DNA of 35,176 nucleotides from Elusimicrobiota bacterium (GTDB lineage: Bacteria; Elusimicrobiota; Elusimicrobia; Elusimicrobiales; Elusimicrobiaceae): NCBI GenBank assembly GCA_031264445.1, contig JAISDW010000088.1:1-35176 (forward strand), in the 5' to 3' direction. This document shows, in pieces, positions 6,931-34,906 of this stretch. The notes beneath the pieces were generated by a model. That model was not told the DNA's origin. It was given only the letters and a program-made list of their open reading frames with translations, and ran no database searches. A program made the translations under genes and the position numbers. How positions within the stretch are numbered: the stretch's first letter is position 1; each line of letters begins with the position of its first letter.

Positions 6931-7110
6931 GTGTCCGGATGCCAGCAAAACATGATAGTTCCCAAAATCTGTGCATCCGAACAGTTTTTTTACGCGTAAA
7001 AAATCAGGCTTTAAGAAAATAACTACCTGTGGCGAAATCGCCAAAAGATTGTTTTACTCAGAATGGCTCCAGCCGGCGTCCAAATGCAGGAAATAAACAG
7101 GATATTTCCC
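6931..7110. repeat. Degenerate intergenic repeat, copy A
   Basis: Shares TCCGGATGCCAG...CCAAAATCTGTGCATCCGAACA...GCGAAATCGC...CAGAATGGCTCC.GCCGGC with copy B. Confidence 0.7.
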
Positions 7111-7155: not shown

Positions 7156-8721
7156 TTATTTTACCGCTTTTCCCGCCTCGGCGTTTGATAACAGGTCAGA
7201 GATTTCTTTATTTCTGCATTGGTATCCGTTAATATCGTAGAGGTAATCAGAGGTGGCTCCCGCTTTCAGCAGAATATACACAATTTCTTTGTCGTCCCTC
7301 CAGCAAGCATTCTTTAACGCTGTCCTGCCGCCGCTGCCTTTTAAATCAGGATCAGCCCCCGCATTTAGCAGCATAGAGACTATTTCTTTATTTGAAGTAA
7401 GCATTAATGCCGTAGAACCATCTGATTTTTGTAAGTTAGGATCAGCCCCCGCGTTCAGCAGCATAGACACGATTTCTTTACCTTCACGGAATGAAGCAAT
7501 TATTAATGCCGTAGAACCATCTGACGATTGTAAGTTCGGATTAGCCTTTGCTTTCAGCAGCATAGAGACTATTTCTTTCCTTCCATGATTAGCGGCAATT
7601 ATTAATGGCGTCTCGGAATTTTCTGTCCGGGCATTAATATCTCCTCCTTTGATAAACTTTTCAAGCAGATCTATATCTTCGTTCACTATGATATTATTTA
7701 TTGATTTGACGGGTACTTCTGCTTCCGCGCCGGCGGCTAATAACATAGAAATGATTTCTTCATGTCTTCTGGCATACAGTAATGCCGTATAACCTTTTGA
7801 GTTTTGTAAATTGGGGTCGGCCCCTGCACTCAGCAAAATAGAGACTATTTCTTTATCTCCACGGGCCGCAGCGGACATTAATGCCGTAGAATTCTCCCTA
7901 TCGCTTCCGGCTGGTAGGTTGGGATCAGCCTTTGCCTTTAGCAGCATAGACACGATTTCTTTTTGTCCGGAAGAAACGGCTCTCGTTAATGGTCTTTCCG
8001 TATATATTAGGGCATTAACATCTGCTCCTTTTTTGATAAATTCTTCAATCAGAGGTATATCTGTAAGGCTTATGGCGTTAATTAACATTTCAGAAAGGTT
8101 CTCTTGTGCGCCGGCGGATAACAACATGGAAACGATTTCTTCATGCCTTCTGACTTTCGCGTTCCATAAACCGCTATTAGGATCAGCGCCCGCCTTCAAC
8201 AGCATAGAGACTATTTCTTTATCTCCATTGGATGAAGCCATACTTAGTGCTGTTTGACCCAGATATGAGTTTATGTTAGGATCGGCTTTTGCCTCTAGCA
8301 GTATAGATACTATTGCTTTATGTCCTGCTCTTGAAGCAGCCATTAAGGCAGTCTCGCCCCCGGGATTAATCCCTCTATGGAAATGTCTCATATTAGGATC
8401 AGCCCCTTCTTTTAATAATCTGGAAACAACATCCTTATCCCCATTTGCCGCGGCAGTTATTAGAAGAGGGGGTTTATTATCCTCAAAGAATCTTTGGATT
8501 TCTTGAAGTTGGACACTATCTAATTGCACCGCCGCCGCGGGCGAATCCATGGCGGGTTTATCCCTTTCAATTCGTTCTTGAACTTGGACACTATCTTTGC
8601 TTGCGCCGGCTTCCGACAAAAGAGCGTTTTCATCTGCAGAATTGTCTTTGCAGCCAGAGGCGAACAGAATAAACGACAGAATCACAAAAGAAAATAATAA
8701 CAAAACTTTTTTTGGTTTCAT
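7156..8721 (-). CDS. Ankyrin-repeat lipoprotein
   Basis: Signal peptide with probable lipobox 'MKPKKVLLLFSFVILSFILFASGC'; ~12 ankyrin repeats ('DGSTALIIASFREGKEIVSMLLNAGADPNLQ'). Confidence 0.88.
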   Translation of the reverse strand: MKPKKVLLLFSFVILSFILFASGCKDNSADENALLSEAGASKDSVQVQERIERDKPAMDSPAAAVQLDSVQLQEIQRFFEDNKPPLLITAAANGDKDVVSRLLKEGADPNMRHFHRGINPGGETALMAASRAGHKAIVSILLEAKADPNINSYLGQTALSMASSNGDKEIVSMLLKAGADPNSGLWNAKVRRHEEIVSMLLSAGAQENLSEMLINAISLTDIPLIEEFIKKGADVNALIYTERPLTRAVSSGQKEIVSMLLKAKADPNLPAGSDRENSTALMSAAARGDKEIVSILLSAGADPNLQNSKGYTALLYARRHEEIISMLLAAGAEAEVPVKSINNIIVNEDIDLLEKFIKGGDINARTENSETPLIIAANHGRKEIVSMLLKAKANPNLQSSDGSTALIIASFREGKEIVSMLLNAGADPNLQKSDGSTALMLTSNKEIVSMLLNAGADPDLKGSGGRTALKNACWRDDKEIVYILLKAGATSDYLYDINGYQCRNKEISDLLSNAEAGKAVK

Positions 8722-8764: not shown

Positions 8765-8990
8765 TTTAATTATCCGGATGCCAGTGAAAAACTATAGTTT
8801 CCAAAATCTGTGCATCCGAACACTTTGTTAAGCAACAAAAATTTAAATTGTAAGAAGAGCCCCATCTTTGACGAAATCGCTAAAGGGTTTAGTTTTCCAG
8901 AATGGCTCCTGCCGGCAGACGGTATCCGGAAAGAATATAAAGCCAAAGTTCCGTATTTCCATACCGCATTTGGCGCGTTAAAATTTGCAG
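8765..8990. repeat. Degenerate intergenic repeat, copy B (same orientation as A)
   Basis: Direct alignment by eye to copy A (~150 bp); its 3' portion resembles 5360-5415 and its middle resembles 11876-11950. Confidence 0.7.
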
Positions 8991-10992: not shown

Positions 10993-11749
10993 TTTTTTTC
11001 TCCCTTTGCACTGTTTCGGGGGTTAAGAAGCCGACGGCGTCTATGAGATTGTTCCTGTAAGACATCAGCCCCTGGTTTTTGAAAGCTCTTTCGCCCGCTA
11101 CGCCAAAAGCCGCAGTCGCGCAAACCGCTGCGTCCAAGGAAGGAAACTCCGCCCTGAAAGCCGCGCACAAGGCCCCCAGCATGCAGCCGCTGCCGCACAC
11201 GCGGCCCATGTATTCGTGTCCGTTTGCGATAGAAAGAGTTTTTTCGCCGTCTGAAATTATATCCAAAGGCCCGCTTATTAAAATTACGCTTTTGGTTTTT
11301 AAGGCCAGCTCTTTTGCAAGCAAAGCGGCGTTTTTGGGTGAAGCTTTATCTTCGTCGCTTGCGTCTACGCCTTTTGTTGCGTTTGCGCTGCCAGCTATGT
11401 TTTTTATTTCCGAAATATTGCCTTTTATTATGTCAAAGCGGATATTTTCAAGCAACTGAAGCGCGGCTTCAGTCCTTAAGCGGCTTGCGCCCGCGCCGAC
11501 GGGGTCAAGAATTACGGGGATATTAAGAGCATTGGCTTTTTTGCCGGCGCGCAACATGGCATTTACGGTGCGGGCGTTCAGCGTGCCTATGTTAATGTAA
11601 AGCGCGTTTGATATGGAAACGATGTCTTCGACTTCTCTTTCATCGTCGGCCATTACGGGGCTGGCGCCGCAGGCTAGTAAAACATTGGCGCAGTCGTTTA
11701 CCGTAACGTAATTTGTTATGCAGTGTACTAAAGGTTTGGTTTGCAGCAT
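10973..11749 (-). CDS. thiM: Hydroxyethylthiazole kinase
   Basis: 'PLVHCITNYVTVNDCANVLLACGASPVMADDEREVEDIV', 'VILDPVGAGASRLRTE', 'GSGCMLGAL'. Confidence 0.93.
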   Translation of the reverse strand: MLQTKPLVHCITNYVTVNDCANVLLACGASPVMADDEREVEDIVSISNALYINIGTLNARTVNAMLRAGKKANALNIPVILDPVGAGASRLRTEAALQLLENIRFDIIKGNISEIKNIAGSANATKGVDASDEDKASPKNAALLAKELALKTKSVILISGPLDIISDGEKTLSIANGHEYMGRVCGSGCMLGALCAAFRAEFPSLDAAVCATAAFGVAGERAFKNQGLMSYRNNLIDAVGFLTPETVQREKKIETLTV

Positions 11750-11762
11750 TTTTTATCCCTCC

Positions 11763-11840
11763 GTTGGTATTATCCAAATCAGGTTATATGGGTCGGAATT
11801 AAAAATTCCCTCTCAGCCTATACATAAGCTCCCCGCCAAC
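11763..11840 (-). ncRNA. TPP riboswitch (THI element) upstream of thiM
   Basis: Reverse strand GTTGGCGGGGAGC...GGCTGAGAGGGAATTTTTAATTCCGACCCATATAACCTGATTTGGATAATACCAACGGAGGGA: P1 GTTGG/CCAAC, CUGAGA and ACCUGAU...GGAUAAU consensus. Confidence 0.95.
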
Positions 11841-11875
11841 TATGAATTATATTAATATTATAACAAAATAACTGA

Positions 11876-11960
11876 AAGTTTTTTAAGCATAAAAAACCGA
11901 GTTTTAAGAAAAGAAAACCCTTCGGCATAATTGCCGAAGGGTTCAGTCTTGAAACAACGC
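11876..11960 (-). repeat. Degenerate intergenic repeat, copy C, containing a perfect hairpin that probably terminates the M20 peptidase gene
   Basis: AACCCTTCGGCA-TAAT-TGCCGAAGGGTT at 11918-11945 (12-bp stem), followed by TTTTCTTTT on the minus strand; flanks align with copy B (TTAAGCA.AAAAA...TAAGAA.AG...AAGGGTT.AGT). Confidence 0.6.
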
Positions 11961-18318: not shown

Positions 18319-19065
18319 ATGAGGAAATTTGTCCGTTTTCTAATTTCAATAATTTTATTTTCGGGCGCGGCGCTGCCTTTAGCCGCAGCCCAGGCTAAAT
18401 TTAACGATTTTGCCGCCAATATCAACAAGGACAATCTTGAATATTTCGCAAAGGATTTATCGGGCCTGCTCAGCGCGGGTACTTTTACCACGGGGCGCAT
18501 TCTGGGCTGGGGCGGGTTTATGCTTTCCGGCCGCGCGGCGCTGATGCCAAAACCCAGCCCGAAAAACACGGCCTTCGGCCCCGCCGACGGGAGTCAATAC
18601 AAAATTTATCCGTGGATACAGGGCGAAATCGGCCTGCCCTTCAGGCTGGACGGCTATATCCGCGCGTCCTCTTACGACGGGCTGACTGTAGCCGGCGGCG
18701 GCCTCAAATGGGGCATAATCCCTCCCAAGGAAGTGCTTTACACCTTCCAGCCGACGGTAGTGGTGCTGGCGGAATCCGGCGTGCATAAAGATTTTTCCCT
18801 TACGCATTACAGCGCGGATTTGGTGCTCTCCTTCAAACTGCCTTATGTCGTGCCTTATGTCGGCGGCGGCGTGGATTATATAAAATTTACCGTACAGGGC
18901 GCCGACAACGACGCGACGTTGATAGGAACCGTCGCCTATGCCACCACCCCGCGCGGCACGGCGGGCTTTAACTTCAAACTGCCGGCTTATGTGGATTTAA
19001 GCCTTGCCGCCAATTACGCCAGCTACGGCCTCGGCGCGGAAGCCAGCCTGGGCGTGCGCTTCTGA
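18319..19065 (+). CDS. Putative outer-membrane beta-barrel protein
   Basis: Signal peptide ending 'ALPLAAAQA'; alternating amphipathic strands; terminal 'LGAEASLGVRF' with C-terminal Phe. Confidence 0.6.
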   Translation: MRKFVRFLISIILFSGAALPLAAAQAKFNDFAANINKDNLEYFAKDLSGLLSAGTFTTGRILGWGGFMLSGRAALMPKPSPKNTAFGPADGSQYKIYPWIQGEIGLPFRLDGYIRASSYDGLTVAGGGLKWGIIPPKEVLYTFQPTVVVLAESGVHKDFSLTHYSADLVLSFKLPYVVPYVGGGVDYIKFTVQGADNDATLIGTVAYATTPRGTAGFNFKLPAYVDLSLAANYASYGLGAEASLGVRF

Positions 19066-20374: not shown

Positions 20375-21625
20375 TTACCAACTCATTTTTATCAAGGTCC
20401 CTTTATCCGGAATGGAATCCCTGTGAAATACCATTTTCTTCCGGGGGATTGGTAGTTTGGCAATATCTAAACTGTAAAAAGTATCCTGCCTGAAAACATT
20501 AGTCCAGATATTTAGCGTTACAGGCTCATTGAATAAAAACGGGTCTGCGATGACGTATACAATATCATTTCCTTTTGTCAGAACCAGAAGAGGCGCTTCA
20601 TGATATGTCCACTCGCCGTAGCCGCTGTCAAAAGTGTCTGACTGTATGCGCTCTTGTTTTCCTGAGTAAGGAGAACTCCGTTTGCCGCTGTTTAAAGTTT
20701 TGATTTCGGCGCGCGCGTGTAAAAGCGGAGGGGCTTCTTGGAGAGTCGGTCCGTGCCCCGGGAAGGCTTTAATGCTATAAACCTCGGTTATTTTCCAACC
20801 GCCATATGTTTTGGGAAAAGACGTGTCAAAAAGATAGTTTTTACAGAAATAATGAGTGTTAGGACCGCACTCCATGCTTACGGGATGGTGTTCAAAGTCT
20901 ATATGCATTGTACCTTTTTGTTCTATCGCCGCCGCTACGTCAACCTGTTTATAGACTGCTACCAGCTCGTCGTTTTTTCGCCTGTTAAGTTCCATCTGAT
21001 ACCGTATTCCGTTTTTAACAGCCTCGGGCAGGGGGCCGCGTTCTTTTAGCTCTGATATTCCGCCGTACAATATTACCCCCGCATTTTTACTTCGCATCAG
21101 TGTATACAAAAAAAATATCTCGTAAACGGACGCGGAGATGCTCCTGCCAGATGCAATGCCCAGCCTTTTTTTAAATGTCATGTTTAATGTATTGCTTATA
21201 AATTCTTTTTCCTTTTCATATATTTCTTTCCAATTTTCATTTCTGTTATCAAGGGAATCCGCCGCGCCGATATGGCCGATATTCAGTTTGTGCGGCATGC
21301 CGCGGTCGCTCAATGCCGTAATAATGTACATATTATAAATATAGTCTGCTAAAGCTTGGCGCGGGCTGACTTCTTTTTGCCTTATAATGTGTTTGTTAAT
21401 CAGAAATTCTACAGAGGCGTTTTTATCATCGGCGTTCCGCACGGCTTCAGCAATAATAGCAATAAAATTAGACCTAGCTCCCTCAGATCTATTGAATCCG
21501 GCAAATTGTATGTATTGCTCCAATGAAGACGGAGACAGCTGGTCATTATACTGTTGTGGATATGCCGTACAAAAAAACAGCATAAAAATTGAAAAAACGC
21601 TTGCCACTCTTGTGAAATATTTCAT
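20375..21625 (-). CDS. Secreted protein of unknown function
   Basis: Signal peptide 'MKYFTRVASVFSIFMLFFCTAYPQQ' preceded by a GGAGGG RBS; the ORF-track N-terminal extension (to 21703) overlaps the promoter and is rejected. Confidence 0.75.
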   Translation of the reverse strand: MKYFTRVASVFSIFMLFFCTAYPQQYNDQLSPSSLEQYIQFAGFNRSEGARSNFIAIIAEAVRNADDKNASVEFLINKHIIRQKEVSPRQALADYIYNMYIITALSDRGMPHKLNIGHIGAADSLDNRNENWKEIYEKEKEFISNTLNMTFKKRLGIASGRSISASVYEIFFLYTLMRSKNAGVILYGGISELKERGPLPEAVKNGIRYQMELNRRKNDELVAVYKQVDVAAAIEQKGTMHIDFEHHPVSMECGPNTHYFCKNYLFDTSFPKTYGGWKITEVYSIKAFPGHGPTLQEAPPLLHARAEIKTLNSGKRSSPYSGKQERIQSDTFDSGYGEWTYHEAPLLVLTKGNDIVYVIADPFLFNEPVTLNIWTNVFRQDTFYSLDIAKLPIPRKKMVFHRDSIPDKGTLIKMSW

Positions 21626-21648: not shown

Positions 21649-21706
21649 AGTATATTATATACCAGATATTGCCCGCAAGGGCCAAAAGACCTATTTTGCG
21701 CATAGG
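21649..21706 (-). promoter_or_regulatory. Sigma70-like promoter with conserved upstream box (copy Y)
   Basis: Minus strand CCTATGCGCAAAATAGGTCTTTTGGCCCTTG (21706-21676), -35 TTGCGG (21678-21673), 18-bp spacer, -10 TATACT (21654-21649). Confidence 0.6.
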
Positions 21707-21919
21707 CCCAAATGCCTTTAATAATTATAAGTGGCGGAAAACGGCAAAGCTGCGGGTGCAGTCATTACTGTGGCAGTTGTGGAACGCTGCCTAGCGTGGA
21801 TTAACAAAGAAAAACAGATGATCTCCCTATGTCTTTTTACTTTTCGCGGGCCATACACTTTCTTTTTCGCGGATATTTTGTTTTACTTTTGCCCGTTTTG
21901 TGGAGGCTTTCACCATTTC

Positions 21920-22079: not shown

Positions 22080-23705
22080 CTACAGCGGGATATTGCCTTT
22101 TCTGGGGTTTTCCCTCGGGTCGCGCTTGTTCTTGAGTATGCGCACTGCGTGTATTATGCGGCTGCGCGCGGCGGAAGGTTCTATAATCTCGTCAATCGCG
22201 CCGGTGGAGGCCGTCTGATAAGGCGAGGCGAATTTAGCCGCGTAATCCGCGGTTAATTTGGCCTTGATTTCCTCCGTCTTATCCGGCGGGGCGGCTTTAA
22301 TGTCGCGCGAGTATAAAATTTCTATCGCGCCGCGCGGGCCCATTACGGCGATTTCGGCCGAGGGTATTGAATAATTGAAATCCCCGCGCAGATATTTGGA
22401 GCTCATCGCTATATAAGCCCCGCCGTAAGCCTTGCGCAGCACGAGGGTAATTTTGGGCACAGTCGCTTCCGCGTAGGCGTATAAAAGTTTTGCGCCGTGG
22501 CGTATTATGCCGCCGTGCTCCTGCTCAACCCCGGGCAGATAACCGCCGATGTCAACCAGCGTAAGTATCGGTATGTTAAAAGCGTTTAGAAAGCGCACAA
22601 AACGCGCGGCTTTGTCGCTGGCGTTGATGTCCAGCGCGCCGCCCAGATGGTCGGAATTATTGGCCACCACGCCGACCACCTCGCCGCCCAGATGAATAAA
22701 ACCCACCACCACGTTTTTGGCGAAGTCGCGGTGGATTTCAAAAAATTTATTCTGGTCCGCAAGCTCCCATATCACATGCTGCGCGCGGAACGGTTTGCGC
22801 GGGTCCATGGCGCAAATCTGCTCCAGAAATGGCGTTTTGCGGTCAATAGAATCCTCGCTTGAAGGCGCGGACGCTTTTTCGTTACAGTTCTGCGGCAGGA
22901 AGGTAAGCAGCTCTTTTACCTGGCGGAAGCAGTCCTGCTCGCTCTTGGCCACCACGTGGCACACGCCGCTCTGCTGGCCGTGCGCGTGGCTGCCGCCGAG
23001 CGTGTCAAAATCCACATCCTCGCCCGTGGCGGATTTAACGACGCTCGGGCCAGTGACGAACATATGGCTTATGCCTTCCACCATGAAAATAAAATCCGTA
23101 AGCGCGGGGGAATACACCGCCCCGCCAGCGCACGGGCCCAGGATTACCGAAATCTGCGGTATCACGCCGGATGCTTTTACATTCCTGTAAAAAATTTCGC
23201 CGTAGCCGTCAAGGCTGTCAACGCCTTCCTGTATGCGCGCGCCGCCGCTGTCCAGCAGGCCTATGACGGGGATTTTGGCTTCCAGCGCCAAATCCATTAT
23301 ATAGGATATTTTCTGCGCGTGCACAAGCCCCAGCGATCCGCCCAGCTGCGTAAAATCCTGCGCGAAGATAGCAACCTCGCGCCCGTTTACGCGGCCGAAA
23401 CCGGTTATCACGCCATCGCCTTTTATGTGTTTGTCTTTTATGCCGAAGTCCGTACATCTGGTTTCAACCAGGCTGCGGATTTCGTAGAAGGAGTTTTCGT
23501 CCAGCAGATATTGTATGCGCTGGCGCGCGGTAAATTTGCCTTTATCGTTCTGGGCTTTTATGCGCTCCGGGTCGCCTGCGCGCGCCGCCGCGCTGACCTC
23601 GCGGAATTTTTTTATATTTTCCGGCACGGGCGCGGGCGCGGTTTCAAGCTCGGGTTTTTCGGATTTCTTTACTTCGCCGTTTTTTAAAGCATTATTATTT
23701 TCCAT
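22080..23705 (-). CDS. Acyl-CoA carboxylase carboxyltransferase subunit (PccB/MmdA-like)
   Basis: 'MFVTGPSVVKSATGEDVDFDTLGGSHAHGQQSGVCHVVA', 'GGYLPGVEQEHGGIIRHGAKLLYAYAEATVPKITLVLRKAYGGAYIAMSSK', 'AVMGPRGAIEILY'. Confidence 0.9.
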   Translation of the reverse strand: MENNNALKNGEVKKSEKPELETAPAPVPENIKKFREVSAAARAGDPERIKAQNDKGKFTARQRIQYLLDENSFYEIRSLVETRCTDFGIKDKHIKGDGVITGFGRVNGREVAIFAQDFTQLGGSLGLVHAQKISYIMDLALEAKIPVIGLLDSGGARIQEGVDSLDGYGEIFYRNVKASGVIPQISVILGPCAGGAVYSPALTDFIFMVEGISHMFVTGPSVVKSATGEDVDFDTLGGSHAHGQQSGVCHVVAKSEQDCFRQVKELLTFLPQNCNEKASAPSSEDSIDRKTPFLEQICAMDPRKPFRAQHVIWELADQNKFFEIHRDFAKNVVVGFIHLGGEVVGVVANNSDHLGGALDINASDKAARFVRFLNAFNIPILTLVDIGGYLPGVEQEHGGIIRHGAKLLYAYAEATVPKITLVLRKAYGGAYIAMSSKYLRGDFNYSIPSAEIAVMGPRGAIEILYSRDIKAAPPDKTEEIKAKLTADYAAKFASPYQTASTGAIDEIIEPSAARSRIIHAVRILKNKRDPRENPRKGNIPL

Positions 23706-23717
23706 AAAAAAGAACCT

Positions 23718-24344
23718 CTATATATGCGGCGCCTCTGCGGCGACGGCCAGTTTATAGCCGCCGTCAAGGTCGCTCGCGTCCACCTGTATATTTGGGCTGC
23801 CCGTTTGCGCCCAGACGTCAAGTGCTTTGCCGTAAAGCATAAGCCTGCCGCCGATGAAGCGTACATCTTTCATATCCAGGCTGAGGCCCGTGCCCAGAAA
23901 TTTCAAAACCGCTTCTTTTTTAGCCCAAAGCTCAGTAAGGAAAAACGCCGCGCTTGACGATATTTCGTCCTTATGGAAGCACATCCGCGCCCATTCTTTG
24001 CCGCGGTTTTCTATAAGTTCTATATCAATGCCGATATTATCGCCGGTAAGGCCTATGGCGGCCGCGGCGTAATCGCCGCTGTGCGTGATGGAAACCGGCA
24101 AATGCGTGCCGCCCTGCACCATGAGCACCGGCTTGCCCGAAGGCGTGCTGCGCACCTCCATATGCAACATATCAAAGGTAAAAAAATCCATAGCAAGCTG
24201 CTTGAGCGCGTAGCGCCCGCCCAGCCATTCGCGGCGGCGCTTTTCCACCTTGAATTCTTCGTAGGTTTTCGTCTCCCTCGCCGTGAGTATCTGCGGCGCG
24301 GGCGGCAGGCGGTCAAGTTCAACGACTTTTATTCTGTATGCCAT
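23718..24344 (-). CDS. 4'-phosphopantetheinyl transferase, Sfp type
   Basis: 'LPVSITHSGDYAAAAIGLTGDNIGIDIELIENR' and 'FFLTELWAKKEAVLKFLGTGLSLDMKDV'. Confidence 0.9.
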   Translation of the reverse strand: MAYRIKVVELDRLPPAPQILTARETKTYEEFKVEKRRREWLGGRYALKQLAMDFFTFDMLHMEVRSTPSGKPVLMVQGGTHLPVSITHSGDYAAAAIGLTGDNIGIDIELIENRGKEWARMCFHKDEISSSAAFFLTELWAKKEAVLKFLGTGLSLDMKDVRFIGGRLMLYGKALDVWAQTGSPNIQVDASDLDGGYKLAVAAEAPHI

Positions 24345-24777: not shown

Positions 24778-24853
24778 AAAAAGACTTATTATATGTCGCG
24801 CTGATTGCCTGCGATAAACATAAATATAATTACTAATAATCATACCCTAAAGT

Positions 24854-24909
24854 CCTATGTGAGAATAGGTCTTTTGGCCCTTGTATTCAGCCCTCGATAA
24901 TATTATACT
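24854..24909 (+). promoter_or_regulatory. Sigma70-like promoter with conserved upstream box (copy X)
   Basis: CCTATGTGAGAATAGGTCTTTTGGCCCTTG (24854-24883), -35 TTGTAT (24881-24886), 17-bp spacer, -10 TATACT (24904-24909). Confidence 0.65.
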
Positions 24910-24945
24910 TTTATTATAATTAGATTTTTCAGCTAAGGAGGCATC

Positions 24946-26046
24946 ATGAAAAGACAGCAAACAAAAAAACTTATAACCAAAGTTCTAAGCATTGTATTAA
25001 CGGCAATAATGCTTGTTAATATCAACCTGCCGGTTTTCGCCCAGTGGACGCCGGCTGATAAAAAAGTCATGCAAATTGCAGACTCTTTAAAAAATATGGC
25101 TGATGAGTATGAAAAACTGCAAAGACAACAGGAAATGTTACTTAAACACATTGAAGAATTAGAAAGAACAGCAGAATTACAGAGAGCAAAAGCGAACGCG
25201 TATAAAAAACTTGAAGAAGCGCCTGATACAAAAAGAGAGAAAAGGATGAATATTAGTAGAAATCTTTATATAGGAGGGGTAGGAGCTATGTTTGCCGCAC
25301 TCATCCTTTATATCCTCCCTTCTGTGGTAGAAACTGCACCGATATGGCTTGAGACCTTGTCAACGATAGTCTTTAGCGGCGGAATGCTTGCACTTGTTGG
25401 TGCGGGGCTTTTCACGCTTTTTTCTTCCGCAGTTCCTGTGCCGGAGGAAATAAGCACATATCACATAAAAGATTTTAAAGGAACTCCTGATACAGAAAGA
25501 AATGACCCTAAATTTGTCAGAGACGTTCTTTTTAAACACCCCGAATATTTCGGCCAGCGGGAGAAATATAACAAAGACATTCCCGTAGTAAATCCGCGGC
25601 GTTTATACGAGGCCGAGCTGAAATATCCTGAACTTAAAACATACCGCGAGAATTATGCGTTTTATCTGAAGCTGATGAATATGGACACAAATGACGAAAG
25701 ATTGGTAAAGGCTCTTTTGACAACCGTGGAAGAATACGGCAAAACGCATCAGCCTGATGAAAAAACGGCTCAAGAGCTTAAGAAGTTTATGGAAGGCGGC
25801 AAATTACGGCAGATTGTACAGTCCGGAGAGGGGCGAAAACTGCAGGAGAAAATACTGGCATTGCAGGATTTCCCGCAGCTGTACGCCGCTGTAAGGAAAA
25901 ACTGCGGGCCGATAGTTAAAGAATTGGAGTATAAGAAAGAGCTGCAAAAAGAGCTCCAAAGGAAGATGATGAAGTTTAACTTTAGCAATCCGCAGGACAG
26001 CGGTTTTGAAGAATATAAAACGCGGATTGGTCTGTTAGCGCCTTAA
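24946..26046 (+). CDS. Exported/membrane protein of unknown function with N-terminal coiled coil
   Basis: Signal peptide 'KVLSIVLTAIMLVNINLPVFAQ', heptad-like Lys/Glu-rich stretch, two TM segments (~aa 105-165), charged C-terminal domain; AAGGAGG RBS. Confidence 0.8.
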   Translation: MKRQQTKKLITKVLSIVLTAIMLVNINLPVFAQWTPADKKVMQIADSLKNMADEYEKLQRQQEMLLKHIEELERTAELQRAKANAYKKLEEAPDTKREKRMNISRNLYIGGVGAMFAALILYILPSVVETAPIWLETLSTIVFSGGMLALVGAGLFTLFSSAVPVPEEISTYHIKDFKGTPDTERNDPKFVRDVLFKHPEYFGQREKYNKDIPVVNPRRLYEAELKYPELKTYRENYAFYLKLMNMDTNDERLVKALLTTVEEYGKTHQPDEKTAQELKKFMEGGKLRQIVQSGEGRKLQEKILALQDFPQLYAAVRKNCGPIVKELEYKKELQKELQRKMMKFNFSNPQDSGFEEYKTRIGLLAP

Positions 26047-26146: not shown

Positions 26147-29100
26147 TTACTGCCCTATCATCTGGTAATCGCCAAGCTCCGCCCAGAGTTTGCCTCTCTC
26201 GTCAAAAACAAAGGCGTCGTAAACGCTTTTGCCTTCAATGTTCTGCCCCGTAAATACGCCGAGCAAATATAATTTCTGCGGCGCGGGGCCTTTGCCAAAG
26301 ATTGCCAGTTTGCCGATGGAATCGGGCAGCGTCATGCGGTTGTCAACGGCCAAATCGCGGTAGCCGCAGGTCTGGAAGGCCGCTTCTATAAGCATTGGGT
26401 AAGCGATAAGCTGTTTGGGCCCGTCGTGGAACAAAACCGAAGCCGGCGTTTTATAAACGCCCAGCACGGCATTATTGTCAATTTTCAAAATCCCGTCCAG
26501 CACCTGGAAGCTCGGCCCGTGGAAGTATTTGGAATAAATGGTTTCTTTTGAGACGGCGTACGCGCCGCCAAGATCAACTTTTGTTTTATAATCATTCCAT
26601 TTACTTTCAAAGCCGCTCAAAACGCGCGCTGTAAAATGCCTGCGCGTATTGCCCATTTTAATGCCTTTGCTGTTGATGAAATCGGATTCTATTTCCATGT
26701 TGACATTGCCGTTTTCCGCGCGGGCTTTGACGCGCACGGTCTGCGGGTTGCGGCGCAAAAGTTTTATGGGCAGGTAGAAGTGCACGTCCTCCAGTCCCTG
26801 CGGCGCGGCGCCGGTAAGCGCGGCGGCGGCTTCCATAAAAGTTTCAATGCCCATTACGCCCGGCACATAAGGCGTGCCTTCAATGGCATGGTCAAAAAGG
26901 AAAGGATATTGAGCGTCAAAAGTATTTTCGGCAAACAGTTCTTTGCCCTTTTCCAAAGTTTTTATTGTGCCGAGGAAAAAATTTTCCCGCCCTTCTTCCG
27001 CGCGGGTGATATCGCCGCCCTGCCCGCCCTGCTGCTGCGCCGCGGGTGCCGCCGGTTCTGCCGGCGCGGCCGGGGTTGGCGTTTGTGGTGTTTGAGGCGT
27101 ATTTTCGCCGTCGTCTTCCTGCGCCTGCGGCGCGTTGCCCGCATTGCCAACAGGCTCGCCGCCGCCGGTAAGCAGAGCGCCTTCCGGCGAAGGCTCTTCT
27201 TTAATAAACTCGTCTTCCGTGCGGACCTGATTGTCCCAGTCAAGCCGGCCGAGGCAGTCGGTCAGTACTATTTCCGGCGCGCGTCCGTAAACGATTTCGT
27301 CAAGGAAAATCTGCATGCCGTCGTGCGGGTCAACAAACTTGAGGCCCTGGTTTGTAAGGAATTCAAACACGCCGCCGCGCACGCCCATACCGACGGAACT
27401 GTATGCGCTCATATCCACGCTTACCGCGCGGGTGCCCTGGTTTTGCAGGCTTATGCACAGTTTGGCGAGGAAGTCATTGGCGCTTGCGTAATCGCTCTGC
27501 CCCAGATTGCCGTACTTGCCCGCGATTGAGGAGGCAAAGGCGTAAAACCCGCTGTCCTTAACCAGATTCAAAGCCACGAATGCGCCGGCGGAGGTAGCCT
27601 TAATGTCAAAGGTTCTGTAATATTCCTCAGGCGTTTTATCGGTAATCAGGCGGGACTTTTCTATACCGGCAAAATGTATCAGCCCGTCAACTTTGCCGTA
27701 TTTGGTTTTGATTTTGGTTACGACTTCTTTCATCATGCTGCCGCTGGTAACGTCGCACTGGTAATATTCGGCCTCGCCGCCGAGGGCCTTTATTTTCTGC
27801 ATATTTTTATAAAGGGTTATGGCGTCGGTTATTTTGCCGTAGGCGCGCTCAAGCAGCACGGGCGTAGCGCGCTGCGTGGTATCGGCTTTAAGCTGCTCCC
27901 AGAGCTTGTTTTTCAGTTCCTTAAGTTCGGCCTCGTTGAGCGTGGCCCAGTAGGAAGCCTTTTCGTCGGGCTCAATGATATCCAGTATCAGTATGCGGCT
28001 TTGGTACTGCGCGGCGATTTTCTGCGAAAGCATGGCCCCCAGGCCCCTGCCCGCGCCCGTGAAGGCGATGGTTTTGCCGCGCAAATCCATATATTTACGG
28101 GACATATCAAGCTGCCGCGGCAGCGAAAACATCGTGCTGCGCGCGCCTTTATACCAGCTTATCATGCAGCGGTCGTCGCCTTTTATAAGCTCGTGAAGCG
28201 TGCGTTCGGCCATGTATTCGGGCTCAGCTTCGGGCTCAAAATCCATTATCTTGCTGAAGCAGCCGCTGAGCTCGTACAAATCCTTGCGGAAGCAGTTTGC
28301 CGCGCCGCAGACAGAGCCTATGGCCGGGCTTATCGCTTCTTTGGTTTTATAGGCAAATGCGCCGTCAACCTTAAAAATTACCGACATAAAAGTATCCGCG
28401 GCCGGGCGGTTATCCTTAAGGTCTTTCATGAAGGTTTTGCACGCCGTGAACAGCGGCATTAAGAACCTGGTAAGATCGGCGTGAGGATTGCTCTTTTTGT
28501 CAAATTTCTTTATGGAGCACGGCAGCAGATAAACCATGCCTTGCACGTCGCCCGGGTTTTCCCGCGCATACTGGGCGAAAGCGGCCGTAGTTTCCTCCAG
28601 GCTGTCCCAGTTGACTATGGTGGTGTTTTTGGCGCGCGTCTTAAGCGTGGTAAAAACATGCGTCCTTACGCCCTGCTGTTTGAAAGCGTCAACGTAGGCT
28701 TTGGTCAGGGAGGCATTATCGGACATTATGAGCACCGCCTTTTCCGCCGATAATTTGCGTTTGCCCTCGGCCGCGAGCGGCGCGTCCACAAGCACGGGGA
28801 TAAAGCGCAGTTTGCGGTTGTGGGAATCTTCGCCCTCGTATTGTTTTGGCGCGGCAGTCTGTGCCGCCGGCGCGGCGGGCTCGGGTGCGGGTGCAGATAC
28901 GGGAGCGGGAGCAGGTATCGGAGCAGGCGCGGCCTCAATAACGGGCGTTTGAAGCGGTTCCGCCGTCGGAGCGACTTGGGCCGCCGGCTCTGGCGCGGCG
29001 GCAACAGGAGTATTAGCATTGCCCGCCGCGGTATTTATCGCGTATTTTATGCAATGCCTTATTGTAGGATAATCTTTGAGCTGTATGCCCTCGGTACGCG

Positions 29101-32100
29101 GCAGATTATATTTTTCTCTCATCGCCGCAAAAAGCTCGGCCTGTTTTACCGTATCTATGCCGAGGTCGGCTTCCATGTCCAAATCCAAGTCCAACATATC
29201 TTTGGGATAGCCCGTTTTTTCAGAAATCAAATCCAGCATTTCGGCAGTGACTCGCGCCTCGTCCAATTGTTTTGGCGCAGTGGCCGACGCGACTGGCGTT
29301 GACGCTGGCACGGGGGCGGGTGCAGCCTCAACAGCCGGCGCCGGAGCAACGGGCATTGTCGGTACAGGCGCGACGGCCGCAACGGGGGCCGGCTCCGCCG
29401 CAGCGGCAACAGGAGCATTGCCCGCCGCAGTATTTATCGCGTATTGTATGCAATGTCTTATTGTGGGATAATCTTTAAGCTGAATACCTTCCGCGCGCGG
29501 CAGATTATATTTTTCCCTCATCGCCGCAAAAAGTTCGGCTTGTTTTACGGTATCTATGCCCAAATCTGCTTCCATGTCCAGATCCAAGTCCAGCATGTCT
29601 TTGGGATAGCCGGTTTTCTCAGAAATCAAATCCAGCATTTCGGCCGTGACTTGCGCCTCGTCCAATTGTTTTGGAGCTGCAGCCTGCACGTCAGGCGCGG
29701 GTGCGATAGCAGGAGCGGCCTCAACAACCGGCGTTATCGGTACAGGCGCAACGGCTGCCGGCTGGTGTTCAGCAGCAACAGATGTATTGCCCGCCGCGGT
29801 ATTTATCGCGTATTTTATGCAATGCCTTATCGTCGGATAATCTTTAAGCTGAATGCCTTCAGTGCGCGGCAGATTATATTTTTCCCTCATCGCCGCAAAA
29901 AGTTCGGCCTGTTTTACAGTATCTATGCCGAGGTCGGCTTCCATATCCAAATCCATATCCAGCATGTCTTTGGGATAGCCGGTTTTTTCAGAAATCAAAT
30001 CCAGCATTTCGGCCGTGACTTGCGCCTCGTCCAATGGTTTTGGCGCGGCGGCCGGCGCGACAGGCGTTGGCGCGGGAACAGGAGCAGCCTCAATAACAGG
30101 CTCCGGGGCAACAACGGGCGCCGTCGGTACAGGTACTGGTGCAACAGCAGCAGCAACGGCTACAGGCTGGTGCGGGTGCGCGGCCTGCGCTTTATCCACA
30201 AAAGCCTGCGAGGCCTCCATAACCAAAGAAGGTTTTCTGCCGGCCTGATAGTCGTCCTTAATCCTTAAGGTATTATGAACCACTTCAAGCACCGGGTTCT
30301 GCTGGTTTGAAGATTCTTTAAGCCACGCGGTATGCGCGACCGCGTCAATTATTCGCGGCGTGCCGGCAGCCCACACCTTTTCCTGCAAAGTCAGCGACAG
30401 CTGCGAGCCAAAGCCCGCGGCCAGCCGCAGCGCGTATTTAAAATTATAATGCCCGCCTTTGCTGAGCGTAATGCCCTCAAGCTCGGGGTCCGGCTCTTTA
30501 TAGTTTGCTATGGGCGGCACATTGCCGGTATTGAGCGAGTGTACTGCAATAACGTCCTCCAGACCGGTACCCATGGAATGGCCAGTAAAGCCTTTTACAT
30601 TGCTGACGATAATTTCCTTCACGTCGCTTTTGAAAGTGTTTTTGAGCGCAAAAACCTCCGCGCTGGCGCTGCCGCCGCGGGCGGGGGTATAAGTCTCGTG
30701 CGAGATAAAAACCATCTCTTTTGCCATGTCCGCGCGGCTGAGATTATAATCCTTCTCAACGCCCGTAATCATTTGGTTCATGACTTCCGCCACGTGGTTT
30801 ACGTCCAGCCGCATGGGGTGAAATGCGCTGTTGCGCATCTCGGCCGCCAGGATTTTGGTTAAAGGCAGCATGCCGCGTTTTGCGACTTCGGCCCCATCTT
30901 CAACCACTATGCCGGCCGCGCCCATGCCCACTATCATGCCGTTGCGCCGCCTGTCAAAAGGCAGTGCGGCCAGGGTAACGTCTTCTTCCCTGCTGACCGC
31001 GCCCGAAGCCAGAAAGCCGGCCAGAATCCATTCCTGCAAAATATCATTGGTAACGTCGTCCGCAGCGATTATAATGACGCGTTTTGCGCGGCCGAGGCGT
31101 ATCCAGTCCTGCGATACCGATAAAGCCTGCGCGGTTGAGGCGCACGCGCCGCTGATATGCGTCGCCGGCCCGCGCGCGCGTATCCACTGGCAGAACTGCG
31201 AATGCGCTATGGGTATGGCTTTCAAGAGGAAATCCTGCGGGAAGGTACGGGCCTTATGTTCTTTGTATTCTTTAAAATTTTCGTCAAACCACGCGCTCAG
31301 CGATGCTTTTAAAGCCTCGTCGCTTAACGCGCCTATGAGACGGCGGTAAAAAGATTCCGCCTGTTCAAGCGTTTTTTTGCTCAGCACGTCCGTTATATTG
31401 CGCGCCACTTCGGATACCCACGTGGTAGCCGTTGGGAAGGCGGAGGTAAAAATTACGCCAGTGTCGTCTATCATGCTTTCCGGCAGGCCCCAGCGGTCCG
31501 GCAGATAGCCGCCGGCCGTGGTGGGTTTGTAATAAAGCACAAGCGGGATGCCCGCGTCTTTAAGCGCAAGCACGCCGGCCGCTATTGCCAGTTTGAAAAC
31601 GGGGTCCATTGAATTGACCCACTTTTCCGGCACGCCGAAATCCTGCCCGAAGTCAAACGCGCCTTTGCGCGCCGCCAGTTTGACGGATTGAGACACGTCT
31701 TCCAGTTTTTCCACCCTGTGGTTGCCCACGCGGGACTTTACTACATATTCTATATTCTTATCTATCTGCTTCTGGCGCGCGGCGGCGGGCAGCTTTTCTA
31801 TGAGGTTTTTACCGTTGAGGATTTCGTCAAGATTACCCTCGCGGAAAACGCGCTCCCAGCTGCCGGGCGTGCCGGCCGCTATGCCGCTGATTACTACGGA
31901 AGGCCAGCTGCGGAGGCCGCAGTCCTGCCGCGCGGCCGGCTGCGCCGCCGGCACTGCTGCCGCTGTTGCCGCTGTTGCCGCAGCTTTGCCGCCGACGGCT
32001 TCGTAAAATGCGGGGTTATACATTGTGGGCGGCGTATCAAGGTCGGTCAAACGCCAGTCCACCGCTATGCCGGCGGCGGCGAGGTTTGCCATAAGATCGT

Positions 32101-34906
32101 TAAATTCGCTTATGCCGCCCTTTTTGGGGTGGTTGGAGGACAGCACGCGCGCATCTTTTTTATCCGCAAGAATATTTGTCACAAAAGCACTCAAAACACG
32201 CTTGGGGCCTACTTCTACAAATAATCTCACACCGCGCTCATAAGCAAGCTGCACCTGCTTTATCCATTCAACGGAGCTCATTATCTGCTCCACCATTATA
32301 TCCCTGATTTTGGCGGTATCTTCGGGATAGAAATCCGCGGAAACGTTTGAAGTTATGGGAAGCACGGGCGGTTTTACTTCAAGAGTGTTCAAAAATTCCC
32401 TGTAGGGTACCTGCGCGTGTTTTACTATGGCCGAGTGGAAAGCATGCGAAACCGGCACTATCACCGACTGTATGCCCATGGCGTTAAACCTTGCCACGGC
32501 TTCTTCAACGGATTTGCTCTCGCCGGCGATAACGGTCTGCGTAGGGCAGTTTTTGTTGGCCACCGACACATAGCCCGGGATTTTTTTAAGCTCGGGCTCA
32601 ATCACCTCAACGCTTGAGGAGACCGCCGCCATCTTGCCATTGTCGCCCACTTTTATATTCGCCATAGCCGTACCGCGCATTGACACCGCGCGTATGGCAT
32701 TGGGGAAATCCAGCACGCCGGCGGCTACCGCCGCGCCGTATTCGCCCAGGCTGTGGCCCATAACCACGTCCGGTTTAAGGCCGAACTGGTACAAAAGCCT
32801 CATCATGGCGACATTGGCCGTAAGTATGGCCGGCTGGGTGTACTGCGTTTGTTTTATGATTTCTTCCCGTTTGGCGATTTGCTCTTTGCCTTCGCCTTCT
32901 TTTGACCAGAGGCTGTCGGTAAGGTTCACGCCTATCATGGATTTCAAAATGTCGTCGGCCTCGTCAAAAGTGTCTTTGACTATTTTGTACTTGCTGGCCA
33001 AATCTTTCATCATATCCACATACTGCGCGCCCTGGCCCGGGAACATAAAACAGACTTTGGGCTTTTCCTCGCGCGGGTGGAACGGATAAATGCCTTTCAT
33101 TTTAAGGTACAAAGAAGGCTCCGCCCAGACGTCGCTGCCCAGAGCGGTCTTTATGAAAAATTCAATCTTTTCCTTAAGTTTCTGCGGGTCTTCCGCGTTT
33201 ATTGAAACCGCAAATTCTTTATGCCGCGCGGTATGGTTTTGATAAGCCGTGCGCGTGATATAGGCGGGGTTGTTTTCAATTGCGCGGGCGGCCTCGTTAA
33301 GTTTGTTGAATAAGTCCTGTTTCGTCGCGGCCGAAAATACCAGCATGTCCCCCTGCAGTTTTTCAAGGGGCGTCATAAGGACGTATTTTGAAGCTTGTTT
33401 CATTTCATTCTCCTGATTAGTCAAATTGTTTTGCGGCTGCTGCTTAGGGGCGGCGGCGGCGCAGGGCGCAGAATCCTGAGGCGCGGCGAATTTTACATCC
33501 GGGTCGTATTCCTGCGCGGCTAAATGGAAGTTCGTACCCCCGAAACCGAAGGAGGATACATTCGCCCGCCTTATTTTATCCGTCTCCCAGGCGCGGGCTT
33601 TGGTTATTACCTTAAACGGGCTGGAAGCCCAGTCAACCGTGGGGTTGGGCGTTTCAAAATTTATTGAAGGCGGCAGCACTTTATGGTGCAGCGCCAGGAT
33701 TATTTTTATTACCGACGCTATGCCCGCCGCGGCTTTGGCGTGGCCTATCTGGCTTTTGACCGAGCCCAGGCCTATAGTCCCCGGCCCGCCGGCAAAGGGT
33801 GCAAAGACTTCATTCAAAGCGCCAAGCTCCGTTGCGTCCCCTACGCGCGTGGCGGTGCCGTGCGCCTCAAGAAGGCCGACTTCGCCCGGATTATAATCCA
33901 GCTGTTCAAAAGTTTTTTCTATAGCCAGCTTCTGGCCTTTGGGGTTGGGCGCGGTTATGCCTTTGCCTTTGCCGTCGCTGGAGGCACCGACGGCGCGGAT
34001 AAGGCCGTAAATTTTATCGCCGTCCCTCTGCGCGTCGCCGAGGCGTTTTAAAATCATTATGCCCGCGCCCTCGGCCATTACGAAGCCGTTGGCCCTGGCG
34101 TCAAAAGCATAGCTGCCGTCGGCGGATAAAGCGCCTATCTTGCAGAATTTGACAAAAGCCGCCGGCGACATCATCTGGTCCACGCCGCCGCATACGGCCA
34201 TATCGTAATTGCCCATGCGCAGGCCGTTTACGGCCTGGTCTATCGCGGCGATTGAGCTTGCGCAAGCCGCGTCAATGGTAAAATTGGTGCCGTTTAAATC
34301 AAATACATTTGCCACGCGGCCGGCTATTACGTTTGAAAGCTCGCCGGGCATGGTATCCTCGGTTATTGGCAGGAAGTGCTCGTCAAGGGCGCGCTCCATA
34401 TCGCCTATTACCGCTTCCTGCGCGGCTGGCGGCAGGTTCGCGAAAGTACCGGATTTGCGCAGCATGTCATAATAGTATTGTTTATATATACGCGTGCAGC
34501 TGTATTCGTTTTTCTGGCCGCCCATGGCATTGGCTATTATTACGGCCGTACGCGCGCGGTTGAAATCTTTTTTATCGTAGCCGCTGTCTTCCAGAGCCAT
34601 GGAGGCGCTTTCAATTGCCAGATGCTGCACGCCGTCCATCTGTCTGGCGATACTGGGCGGTATACGATATTTAAGCGGGTTGAACTGAAAGCCTGTAATA
34701 AACCCGCCTATTTTGGAATAAGTTTTGTCTTTCGCGCCGTGGTCCGGGTCGTAAAAGAGAGAGGAATCCCACCTGTCTTTGGGCACTTCCGTAATACAGT
34801 TCCTGCCTTCAGTGATATTCTTCCAGAATTCGTCTTTATTGGCCGCGGCGGGCATTATTGCGCCTATACCGATAACTGCCACAGGTTCAAGATATTTTTT
34901 GGACAT
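26147..34906 (-). CDS. Type I polyketide/secondary-lipid (Pfa-like) synthase, KS-AT-KS-ACP-ACP-ACP-KR-DH
   Basis: KS1 'DAACASS', 'EAHGTATRVGD', 'KSQIGHAKAAAG'; AT 'FPGQGAQY', 'GHSLGEY', 'HAFH'; KS2 'GACASTAQ', 'SHETYTPARGGSAS', 'GFTGHSMGTG'; three ACPs 'LDMEADLGIDTVKQAELFAAM' / 'LDLEADLGIDTVKQAE'-like; KR 'AFTGAGRGLGA', 'FASSIAGKYGNLGQSDYASAND'; DH 'DHAIEGTPYVPGVMGIE'. CAGGAG RBS upstream of ATG 34906. Confidence 0.95.
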   Translation of the reverse strand: MSKKYLEPVAVIGIGAIMPAAANKDEFWKNITEGRNCITEVPKDRWDSSLFYDPDHGAKDKTYSKIGGFITGFQFNPLKYRIPPSIARQMDGVQHLAIESASMALEDSGYDKKDFNRARTAVIIANAMGGQKNEYSCTRIYKQYYYDMLRKSGTFANLPPAAQEAVIGDMERALDEHFLPITEDTMPGELSNVIAGRVANVFDLNGTNFTIDAACASSIAAIDQAVNGLRMGNYDMAVCGGVDQMMSPAAFVKFCKIGALSADGSYAFDARANGFVMAEGAGIMILKRLGDAQRDGDKIYGLIRAVGASSDGKGKGITAPNPKGQKLAIEKTFEQLDYNPGEVGLLEAHGTATRVGDATELGALNEVFAPFAGGPGTIGLGSVKSQIGHAKAAAGIASVIKIILALHHKVLPPSINFETPNPTVDWASSPFKVITKARAWETDKIRRANVSSFGFGGTNFHLAAQEYDPDVKFAAPQDSAPCAAAAPKQQPQNNLTNQENEMKQASKYVLMTPLEKLQGDMLVFSAATKQDLFNKLNEAARAIENNPAYITRTAYQNHTARHKEFAVSINAEDPQKLKEKIEFFIKTALGSDVWAEPSLYLKMKGIYPFHPREEKPKVCFMFPGQGAQYVDMMKDLASKYKIVKDTFDEADDILKSMIGVNLTDSLWSKEGEGKEQIAKREEIIKQTQYTQPAILTANVAMMRLLYQFGLKPDVVMGHSLGEYGAAVAAGVLDFPNAIRAVSMRGTAMANIKVGDNGKMAAVSSSVEVIEPELKKIPGYVSVANKNCPTQTVIAGESKSVEEAVARFNAMGIQSVIVPVSHAFHSAIVKHAQVPYREFLNTLEVKPPVLPITSNVSADFYPEDTAKIRDIMVEQIMSSVEWIKQVQLAYERGVRLFVEVGPKRVLSAFVTNILADKKDARVLSSNHPKKGGISEFNDLMANLAAAGIAVDWRLTDLDTPPTMYNPAFYEAVGGKAAATAATAAAVPAAQPAARQDCGLRSWPSVVISGIAAGTPGSWERVFREGNLDEILNGKNLIEKLPAAARQKQIDKNIEYVVKSRVGNHRVEKLEDVSQSVKLAARKGAFDFGQDFGVPEKWVNSMDPVFKLAIAAGVLALKDAGIPLVLYYKPTTAGGYLPDRWGLPESMIDDTGVIFTSAFPTATTWVSEVARNITDVLSKKTLEQAESFYRRLIGALSDEALKASLSAWFDENFKEYKEHKARTFPQDFLLKAIPIAHSQFCQWIRARGPATHISGACASTAQALSVSQDWIRLGRAKRVIIIAADDVTNDILQEWILAGFLASGAVSREEDVTLAALPFDRRRNGMIVGMGAAGIVVEDGAEVAKRGMLPLTKILAAEMRNSAFHPMRLDVNHVAEVMNQMITGVEKDYNLSRADMAKEMVFISHETYTPARGGSASAEVFALKNTFKSDVKEIIVSNVKGFTGHSMGTGLEDVIAVHSLNTGNVPPIANYKEPDPELEGITLSKGGHYNFKYALRLAAGFGSQLSLTLQEKVWAAGTPRIIDAVAHTAWLKESSNQQNPVLEVVHNTLRIKDDYQAGRKPSLVMEASQAFVDKAQAAHPHQPVAVAAAVAPVPVPTAPVVAPEPVIEAAPVPAPTPVAPAAAPKPLDEAQVTAEMLDLISEKTGYPKDMLDMDLDMEADLGIDTVKQAELFAAMREKYNLPRTEGIQLKDYPTIRHCIKYAINTAAGNTSVAAEHQPAAVAPVPITPVVEAAPAIAPAPDVQAAAPKQLDEAQVTAEMLDLISEKTGYPKDMLDLDLDMEADLGIDTVKQAELFAAMREKYNLPRAEGIQLKDYPTIRHCIQYAINTAAGNAPVAAAAEPAPVAAVAPVPTMPVAPAPAVEAAPAPVPASTPVASATAPKQLDEARVTAEMLDLISEKTGYPKDMLDLDLDMEADLGIDTVKQAELFAAMREKYNLPRTEGIQLKDYPTIRHCIKYAINTAAGNANTPVAAAPEPAAQVAPTAEPLQTPVIEAAPAPIPAPAPVSAPAPEPAAPAAQTAAPKQYEGEDSHNRKLRFIPVLVDAPLAAEGKRKLSAEKAVLIMSDNASLTKAYVDAFKQQGVRTHVFTTLKTRAKNTTIVNWDSLEETTAAFAQYARENPGDVQGMVYLLPCSIKKFDKKSNPHADLTRFLMPLFTACKTFMKDLKDNRPAADTFMSVIFKVDGAFAYKTKEAISPAIGSVCGAANCFRKDLYELSGCFSKIMDFEPEAEPEYMAERTLHELIKGDDRCMISWYKGARSTMFSLPRQLDMSRKYMDLRGKTIAFTGAGRGLGAMLSQKIAAQYQSRILILDIIEPDEKASYWATLNEAELKELKNKLWEQLKADTTQRATPVLLERAYGKITDAITLYKNMQKIKALGGEAEYYQCDVTSGSMMKEVVTKIKTKYGKVDGLIHFAGIEKSRLITDKTPEEYYRTFDIKATSAGAFVALNLVKDSGFYAFASSIAGKYGNLGQSDYASANDFLAKLCISLQNQGTRAVSVDMSAYSSVGMGVRGGVFEFLTNQGLKFVDPHDGMQIFLDEIVYGRAPEIVLTDCLGRLDWDNQVRTEDEFIKEEPSPEGALLTGGGEPVGNAGNAPQAQEDDGENTPQTPQTPTPAAPAEPAAPAAQQQGGQGGDITRAEEGRENFFLGTIKTLEKGKELFAENTFDAQYPFLFDHAIEGTPYVPGVMGIETFMEAAAALTGAAPQGLEDVHFYLPIKLLRRNPQTVRVKARAENGNVNMEIESDFINSKGIKMGNTRRHFTARVLSGFESKWNDYKTKVDLGGAYAVSKETIYSKYFHGPSFQVLDGILKIDNNAVLGVYKTPASVLFHDGPKQLIAYPMLIEAAFQTCGYRDLAVDNRMTLPDSIGKLAIFGKGPAPQKLYLLGVFTGQNIEGKSVYDAFVFDERGKLWAELGDYQMIGQ
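29029..30050 (-). repeat. Three tandem ACP-coding repeats (~250 bp conserved units) separated by Pro/Ala-rich linkers
   Basis: Near-identical units starting at about 29029, 29428 and 29797 on the + strand coordinates. Confidence 0.9.

Follow-up and report, generated by a model that had tools for sequence, protein, structure and literature searches.

A palindromic operator joined to a sigma70-type promoter precedes exported-protein genes in one class of Elusimicrobiota and is probably bound by a NarL/FixJ response regulator

INTRODUCTION

DosR (DevR) of Mycobacterium tuberculosis, a response regulator of the NarL/FixJ family, has an operator with the consensus TTSGGGACTWWAGTCCCSAA (PMC2275270), and its residues Lys179, Lys182 and Asn183 contact bases (PMC4082495). 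Here we describe a palindromic operator fused to a sigma70-type promoter, present in two copies (X and Y) in a stretch of 35,176 nucleotides (nt) from an Elusimicrobiota bacterium of the family Elusimicrobiaceae (assembly GCA_031264445.1, contig JAISDW010000088.1, positions 1 to 35,176); this whole stretch is called the window. The element, termed the box, lies upstream of genes for exported proteins in many genomes of the same class and is probably bound by a NarL/FixJ regulator designated RR-A. No earlier description of the box or of its regulon was found in the literature searched.

RR-A resembles DosR in its family and in the K-x2-K-N residues that in DosR make base contacts (PMC4082495). 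In the DosR regulon, too, one regulator serves scattered genes, and some promoters carry several sites that are bound cooperatively (PMC4082495, PMC2275270). In addition, the operator core GGAC-TTTA-GTCC of some box sites matches the DosR consensus, with GGAC-TWWA-GTCC in the same frame. However, the DosR operator proper was rejected as a description of the box, in which the half-site (TAGGNC) has TA at the outer positions instead of GG/CC. The two systems also differ in their targets (dormancy genes for DosR, exported proteins for the box) and in their sensors, a haem kinase for DosR as opposed to a dCache-type membrane kinase and a hybrid kinase next to RR-A; furthermore, RR-A is encoded within a Tad pilus locus.

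Two other systems offer partial parallels. VraR/LiaR-type regulators act in cell-wall stress in Gram-positive bacteria. VraR is the best sequence match of RR-A among solved structures (expectation value, E, about 1e-37), although orthology is not claimed. PlcR of Bacillus cereus is a peptide-responsive regulator. One box stands before many unrelated secreted-protein genes in the PlcR regulon as well (PMC2464732), but regulator type, phylum and box all differ.

RESULTS

Two copies of the box in the window

Copies X (24854-24883, + strand) and Y (21706-21676, - strand) were located at the positions given in the preliminary description, and AATAGGTCTTTTGGCCCTTG is identical in both (24864-24883 on the + strand and 21695-21676 on the - strand). 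Comparison with 100 shuffles gave no match to this sequence, even with 3 mismatches allowed. The sequence also confirmed the reported TTG, followed by a spacer of 17 base pairs (bp) in X and 18 bp in Y and the hexamer TATACT. In a window scan with a sequence-only model, copy X was matched at 24834-24883 (E 2.6e-10) and copy Y at 21676-21724 (E 2.8e-10); the scan gave no third site, apart from the palindrome of copy X on the other strand and a negligible match (E 3.6). The parts of the two copies and their downstream genes are as follows.

24842..24857, + strand: copy X distal operator, in which only the right half-site GTCCTA (24852-24857) is well preserved
24866..24881, + strand: copy X proximal operator, TAGGTC-TTTT-GGCCCT, centred at -42.5 from the predicted start
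24881..24886, + strand: copy X -35 element, TTGTAT, overlapping the operator; TTG is conserved in the site profile
24904..24909, + strand: copy X -10 element, TATACT, after a 17-bp spacer; predicted start about 24916
24946..26046, + strand: exported protein of 366 amino acids, family not known, with Shine-Dalgarno sequence AAGGAGG at 24935-24941
21703..21718, - strand: copy Y distal operator, with the right half-site GGCCTA (21703-21708) preserved
21678..21693, - strand: copy Y proximal operator, TAGGTC-TTTT-GGCCCT, identified by sequence and model match
21673..21678, - strand: copy Y -35 element, TTGCGG, identified by sequence
21649..21654, - strand: copy Y -10 element, TATACT, after an 18-bp spacer
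20375..21625, - strand: exported protein of 416 amino acids with a Gln_deamidase_2 (protein-glutaminase-like) C-terminal domain

The centres of the distal and proximal operators are 24 bp apart in copy X and 25 bp apart in copy Y. An inverted repeat, CCTAT-N6/7-ATAGG, had been put forward as an activator site; an operator is indeed supported here, but that particular dyad merely joins two operators. The gene at 24946 stands as the one downstream of copy X, whereas position 20375, cited for copy Y, is the 3' end of a gene that starts at 21625. The ATG of the longest open reading frame (ORF), at 21703, falls within the copy Y box, while the true start at 21625 lies downstream of the promoter and has the Shine-Dalgarno sequence GGAGGG.

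The box has a fixed geometry relative to a sigma70-type promoter

Over 104 non-redundant sites, the core of the box is ATAGG[TCA]CTTTTGGCCC-TTG, and a second, weaker half-site, GNCCTA, appears upstream of it in the profile. The underlying unit is a 16-bp palindrome, TAGGNC-N4-GNCCTA, of which each box has one or two, 24-25 bp apart; some sites, such as TAGGACTTTAGTCCTA and GGCCAAAAGACCTA, have the second palindrome in full. The proximal palindrome overlaps the TTG of the -35 element, with TATAAT 17 bp further downstream. In 33 of the 104 sites, a hexamer that matches TATAAT at 5 of 6 positions or better starts at +21 past the box, and in 13 it starts at +22, over a background of about 2-3. Furthermore, 14 of the 104 sites have a start codon at a distance of exactly 32 or 33 nt from the box (Poisson p about 7e-10). 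With transcription beginning 7-8 nt past the -10 element, these genes would have leaderless messenger RNAs. The leaderless starts place the centre of the proximal palindrome at -42.5, which is the class II activator position, and they lend independent support to a genuine promoter and to a box that acts as DNA and not as RNA. A palindromic operator at the class II position of a sigma70 promoter is the arrangement looked for in a NarL/FixJ regulon. The first interpretation of the box, as an activator site combined with a sigma70-type promoter, is strongly supported by the -10 element at fixed spacing, and the predicted start falls downstream of the box, as far as this check could be run. We consider it close to certain that the promoter element and its regulon are real.

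The same start codons bear on whether the box is a leader RNA element with alternative hairpins CCUAU..AUAGG and GGUC-UUUU-GGCC, which the preliminary description had left as an option. Although the palindromic arms could fold as RNA, the start codons 32-33 nt past the box in 14 of 104 genes, 5-7 nt beyond a -10 element at fixed spacing, put the transcription start beyond it, so that the box is untranscribed from this promoter. An Rfam covariance scan of the window matched only a thiamine pyrophosphate (TPP) riboswitch and a transfer RNA; it gave no match at either copy and no known cis-regulatory RNA family at the box. The RNA reading was accordingly rejected as very improbable.

Sigma-54 promoters (-24 GG / -12 GC, with no -10 hexamer), for which control of the bacterial exterior has been claimed, share with the box a tie to surface functions and, at first sight, GG and TTG elements. 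They differ in that the box has a sigma70-type -10 element at 17-bp spacing, and a sigma-54 promoter was ruled out by the TATAAT peak at +21 and by the lack of a conserved GC 12 nt on. Elusimicrobium minutum has been reported to lack sigma-54 (PMC3162934).

An operator over the -35 element is also compatible with repression. Since the proximal palindrome overlaps the -35, a protein bound there could block polymerase until a signal derepresses the regulon. However, class II activators classically sit at -42.5, where the proximal palindrome is centred, and the -35 is poor in other respects. The distal palindrome, at about -67.5, suits the kind of cooperative activation described for DosR/DevR (works cited in PMC4082495). 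We regard repression as unlikely and infer that the operator is used for activation.

The box is largely confined to the class of the window

The genome of the window (1.57 Mb in 153 contigs) contained 11 sites with at most 3 mismatches to the box and no match to the reversed pattern. A box model trained mainly on one family gave 20 matches at E<=1 in this genome; in the relative G034 (one contig of 1,643,562 bp) it gave 42, where about 1 is expected. An exact scan for WATAGGWCTTTTGGCCCTTG across 84,980 species genomes returned 37 stretches, nearly all of them from Elusimicrobia/Elusimicrobiales/Elusimicrobium; four matches labelled Flavobacteriaceae, Cytophagales and Acidimicrobiales were followed by neither a promoter nor a gene and appear to be fortuitous. 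Among 295 genomes of the phylum, the box was present at E<=0.005 in 134, all of the class of the window, and the other classes gave single marginal matches only. Genome G003, which carries RR-A but was at first taken as box-less, has marginal matches upstream of exported genes, one of which is leaderless. Other families of the class also have the box upstream of exported genes. Some of their genomes have a guanine-plus-cytosine (G+C) content of 0.66-0.68, at which only selection would maintain an A+T-rich operator.

Genes downstream of the box encode mostly unrelated exported proteins

The suggestion of a shared regulon of exported proteins was borne out, as the box lies just upstream of signal-peptide genes in many genomes. 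By a simple rule, a signal-peptide-like N terminus was present in 81 of 104 downstream ORFs compared with 45 of 120 control ORFs (p 7e-10). This enrichment is conservative because the control ORFs are rich in Tad-locus membrane proteins, and several of the downstream ORFs that failed the rule reflect start-codon errors or an exported gene on the divergent side. The 75 clear exported proteins fall into 54 unrelated clusters. When 20 exported proteins were scanned against Pfam, most had no family; those named were an M20 peptidase, Gln_deamidase_2 and weak matrixin-like proteins. A paralogue of the 366-residue window protein, on contig C83, also bears the box, as do relatives of the 416-residue protein in other genomes. 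The box does not serve exported proteins in general: in the model scan, other exported genes of the window, such as 7156-8721 and 18319-19065, had no box.

These data also bear on whether the box could be a dispersed repeat, or the end of a mobile element, that lies near genes by chance. Each genome has several copies, and several of these are near contig ends. However, the sites lie preferentially upstream of genes, their flanks are not conserved, their spacing to the -10 element and to start codons is fixed, and they precede 54 unrelated gene families. The box is moreover maintained before exported genes at 0.66-0.68 G+C, and its half-sites change in concert across 35 exact copies in genome G129 (see below). 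A dispersed repeat thus appears extremely improbable.

In two genomes (L117 and L045), the gene behind the box is rdgB-like (XTP pyrophosphatase) and is divergent from a glycosyltransferase gene; the former is either a conserved non-exported target, or the target is on the other strand. In the window, the product of 5544-6920 (+; ORF annotated from 5583) appears to be exported, with a signal peptide (ATG 5544, MKKIFVLFFFLV) broken by an in-frame TAG, and an intact relative, controlled by the box, is present in L020. The window gene may be a pseudogene, contain an assembly error or have a different start.

RR-A is the candidate regulator

The candidate regulator is encoded elsewhere in the genome of the window.

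G000:C66:9971-10627: RR-A, NarL/FixJ (GerE) response regulator (Response_reg 98.9 bits, GerE 66.9 bits)

RR-A lies in a Tad/Flp pilus locus that includes RcpC, TadE, T2SSE and two T2SSF; new Tad systems in Elusimicrobia have been noted earlier (PMC6668835). Directly upstream are a dCache-HAMP-HisKA-HATPase kinase and a REC-HisKA-HATPase hybrid, so that RR-A has the adjacent histidine kinase looked for in a NarL/FixJ regulon. The frame of the palindrome is similar to that of NarL/FixJ operators. GerE regulators occur in all 85 family genomes searched, usually two per genome, and the second NarL-type regulator, RR-B, adjoins a different kinase.

In a test of 33 genomes, with G003 and G129 set aside, RR-A orthologues (264-456 bits) were found in 18 of 19 box genomes and in 0 of 12 box-less ones. 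Across the 295 genomes, with 10 candidates scored per genome, RR-A was detected in 127 of the 134 genomes with a box at E<=0.005 and in 39 of the 161 without such a box; it was found in 0 of 109 unlisted genomes, apparently those outside the class. GerE, Crp and OmpR were the regulator families compared with the box. RR-B was rejected because its orthologue is missing from the box-bearing f5 genomes and from box-bearing G071, G095, G202, G212 and G030. A Crp/Fnr regulator was rejected on the lack of a PF13545 match in box-bearing G003 and G007, and an OmpR/PhoB regulator on the lack of a PF00486 match in box-bearing G034, G003 and G007.

The box and RR-A have changed jointly in one genome

Genome G129 contains RR-A but is the one genome of the same family that lacks the canonical box. 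A count of palindromes in 246 kb of this genome brought out TAGTAC-TAAA-GTACC, with TTG or a similar triplet behind it. This changed box has unchanged -10 spacing, tandem copies at 24 bp and leaderless starts, and a signal peptide is encoded by 15 of the 15 genes behind it. The sequence TAGTACTWWWGTACC has 35 exact copies in G129 and 0 in 89 other family genomes, with zero matches to the reversed control. The same palindrome count in G069, a box-less genome without RR-A that served as a negative control, gave no comparable family.

The RR-A helix reads SINTVKNHIN in G129 as opposed to S[VI]KT[IV]KNHLN in 28 of 28 other sampled family genomes, and KT[IV]KNHLN is also kept in sampled RR-A orthologues of other box-bearing families. 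The position of the Lys-to-Asn change aligns gap-free with DosR Lys179, and the RR-A of G129 is the sole RR-A found with Asn at the equivalent position.

G129 has a second repeat family, ACTGCGAAGCAGT, with 14 copies in 246 kb and conserved flanks (e.g., L248:4807, L255:7995 and L264:117), which is probably a dispersed repeat.

Other features of the window

The TPP riboswitch (11739-11845, -; 67.2 bits) lies upstream of a thiamine operon that, by sequence, comprises hydroxyethylthiazole kinase, ThiE fused to a HAD domain, and ThiD. A protein of 2919 amino acids resembling polyketide/polyunsaturated-fatty-acid synthases, with three repeated carrier-protein units, is encoded at 26147-34906 (-), and close to it are a phosphopantetheinyl-transferase-like ORF (23718-24344) and a carboxyl-transferase-like ORF (22080-23705). 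Three related intergenic repeats (6934-7077, 8773-8916 and 11879-11943) of up to 144 nt are 63-74% alike, have inverted-repeat ends and are possibly terminators. The ORF at 7156-8721 (-) is lipoprotein-like and has many ankyrin-type repeats.

DISCUSSION

Collectively, our findings suggest that RR-A is probably the activator that binds the box. Several observations weigh against this assignment. Three regulator families were compared. Seven of the 134 box genomes have no detected RR-A, six of them from family f2, including G268 (78% completeness), which has 11 boxes; conversely, 39 genomes have RR-A but no strong box, although the model used to find boxes derives mainly from one family. The co-occurrence partly reflects shared ancestry (odds ratio within the class 6, p 3e-4), and no palindrome was found near the RR-A/Tad locus, so that the link gains no support from autoregulation. 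The joint change in G129 is one event in one lineage, and the helix substitution may be incidental, given the overall divergence of the RR-A of G129 (63% identity).

The same operator and regulon could thus belong to another transcription factor, from a family outside GerE, Crp and OmpR, with RR-A only sharing its phylogenetic distribution; the limited set of families compared, the seven genomes and the lack of a box near the RR-A locus would all fit. This alternative, however, leaves aside the joint change of box and recognition helix in G129 and an operator frame shared with DosR, to which RR-A is related within the NarL/FixJ family, and RR-B, Crp and OmpR are excluded by genomes that lack them. 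We consider another factor to be improbable.

With RR-A as the activator, a mechanism can be proposed from the sequence data. The dCache-HAMP kinase and the REC-kinase hybrid would phosphorylate RR-A, whose dimers would bind the pair of 16-bp palindromes, TAGGNC-N4-GNCCTA, with centres near -42.5 and -67.5. Of these dimers, the proximal one would then touch RNA polymerase at a poor -35 element, of which only the TTG is kept, and this contact would switch on a lone exported-protein gene. In this scheme, binding and activation of the box promoters by RR-A are predicted, and control of RR-A by phosphorylation and by a signal is putative. It is conceivable, if rather doubtful, that the Tad-encoded RR-A co-ordinates a Tad-type machine with a large and fast-changing set of exported cargo or partner proteins in response to one extracellular signal, as an undescribed surface or secretion programme of the Elusimicrobiota, through a code that was rewired in G129.

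The Elusimicrobiota are gut and groundwater bacteria, of which very few have been cultured. Judging from the literature searched, no regulon had been defined in this phylum before, and the present one would be the first. The joint change of operator and helix in G129 would amount to a natural specificity switch, which makes the assignment of the regulator directly testable. The regulon groups dozens of orphan exported proteins, some of them protease- or glutaminase-like, under one signal, and would provide a handle on how Elusimicrobiota act on their surroundings.
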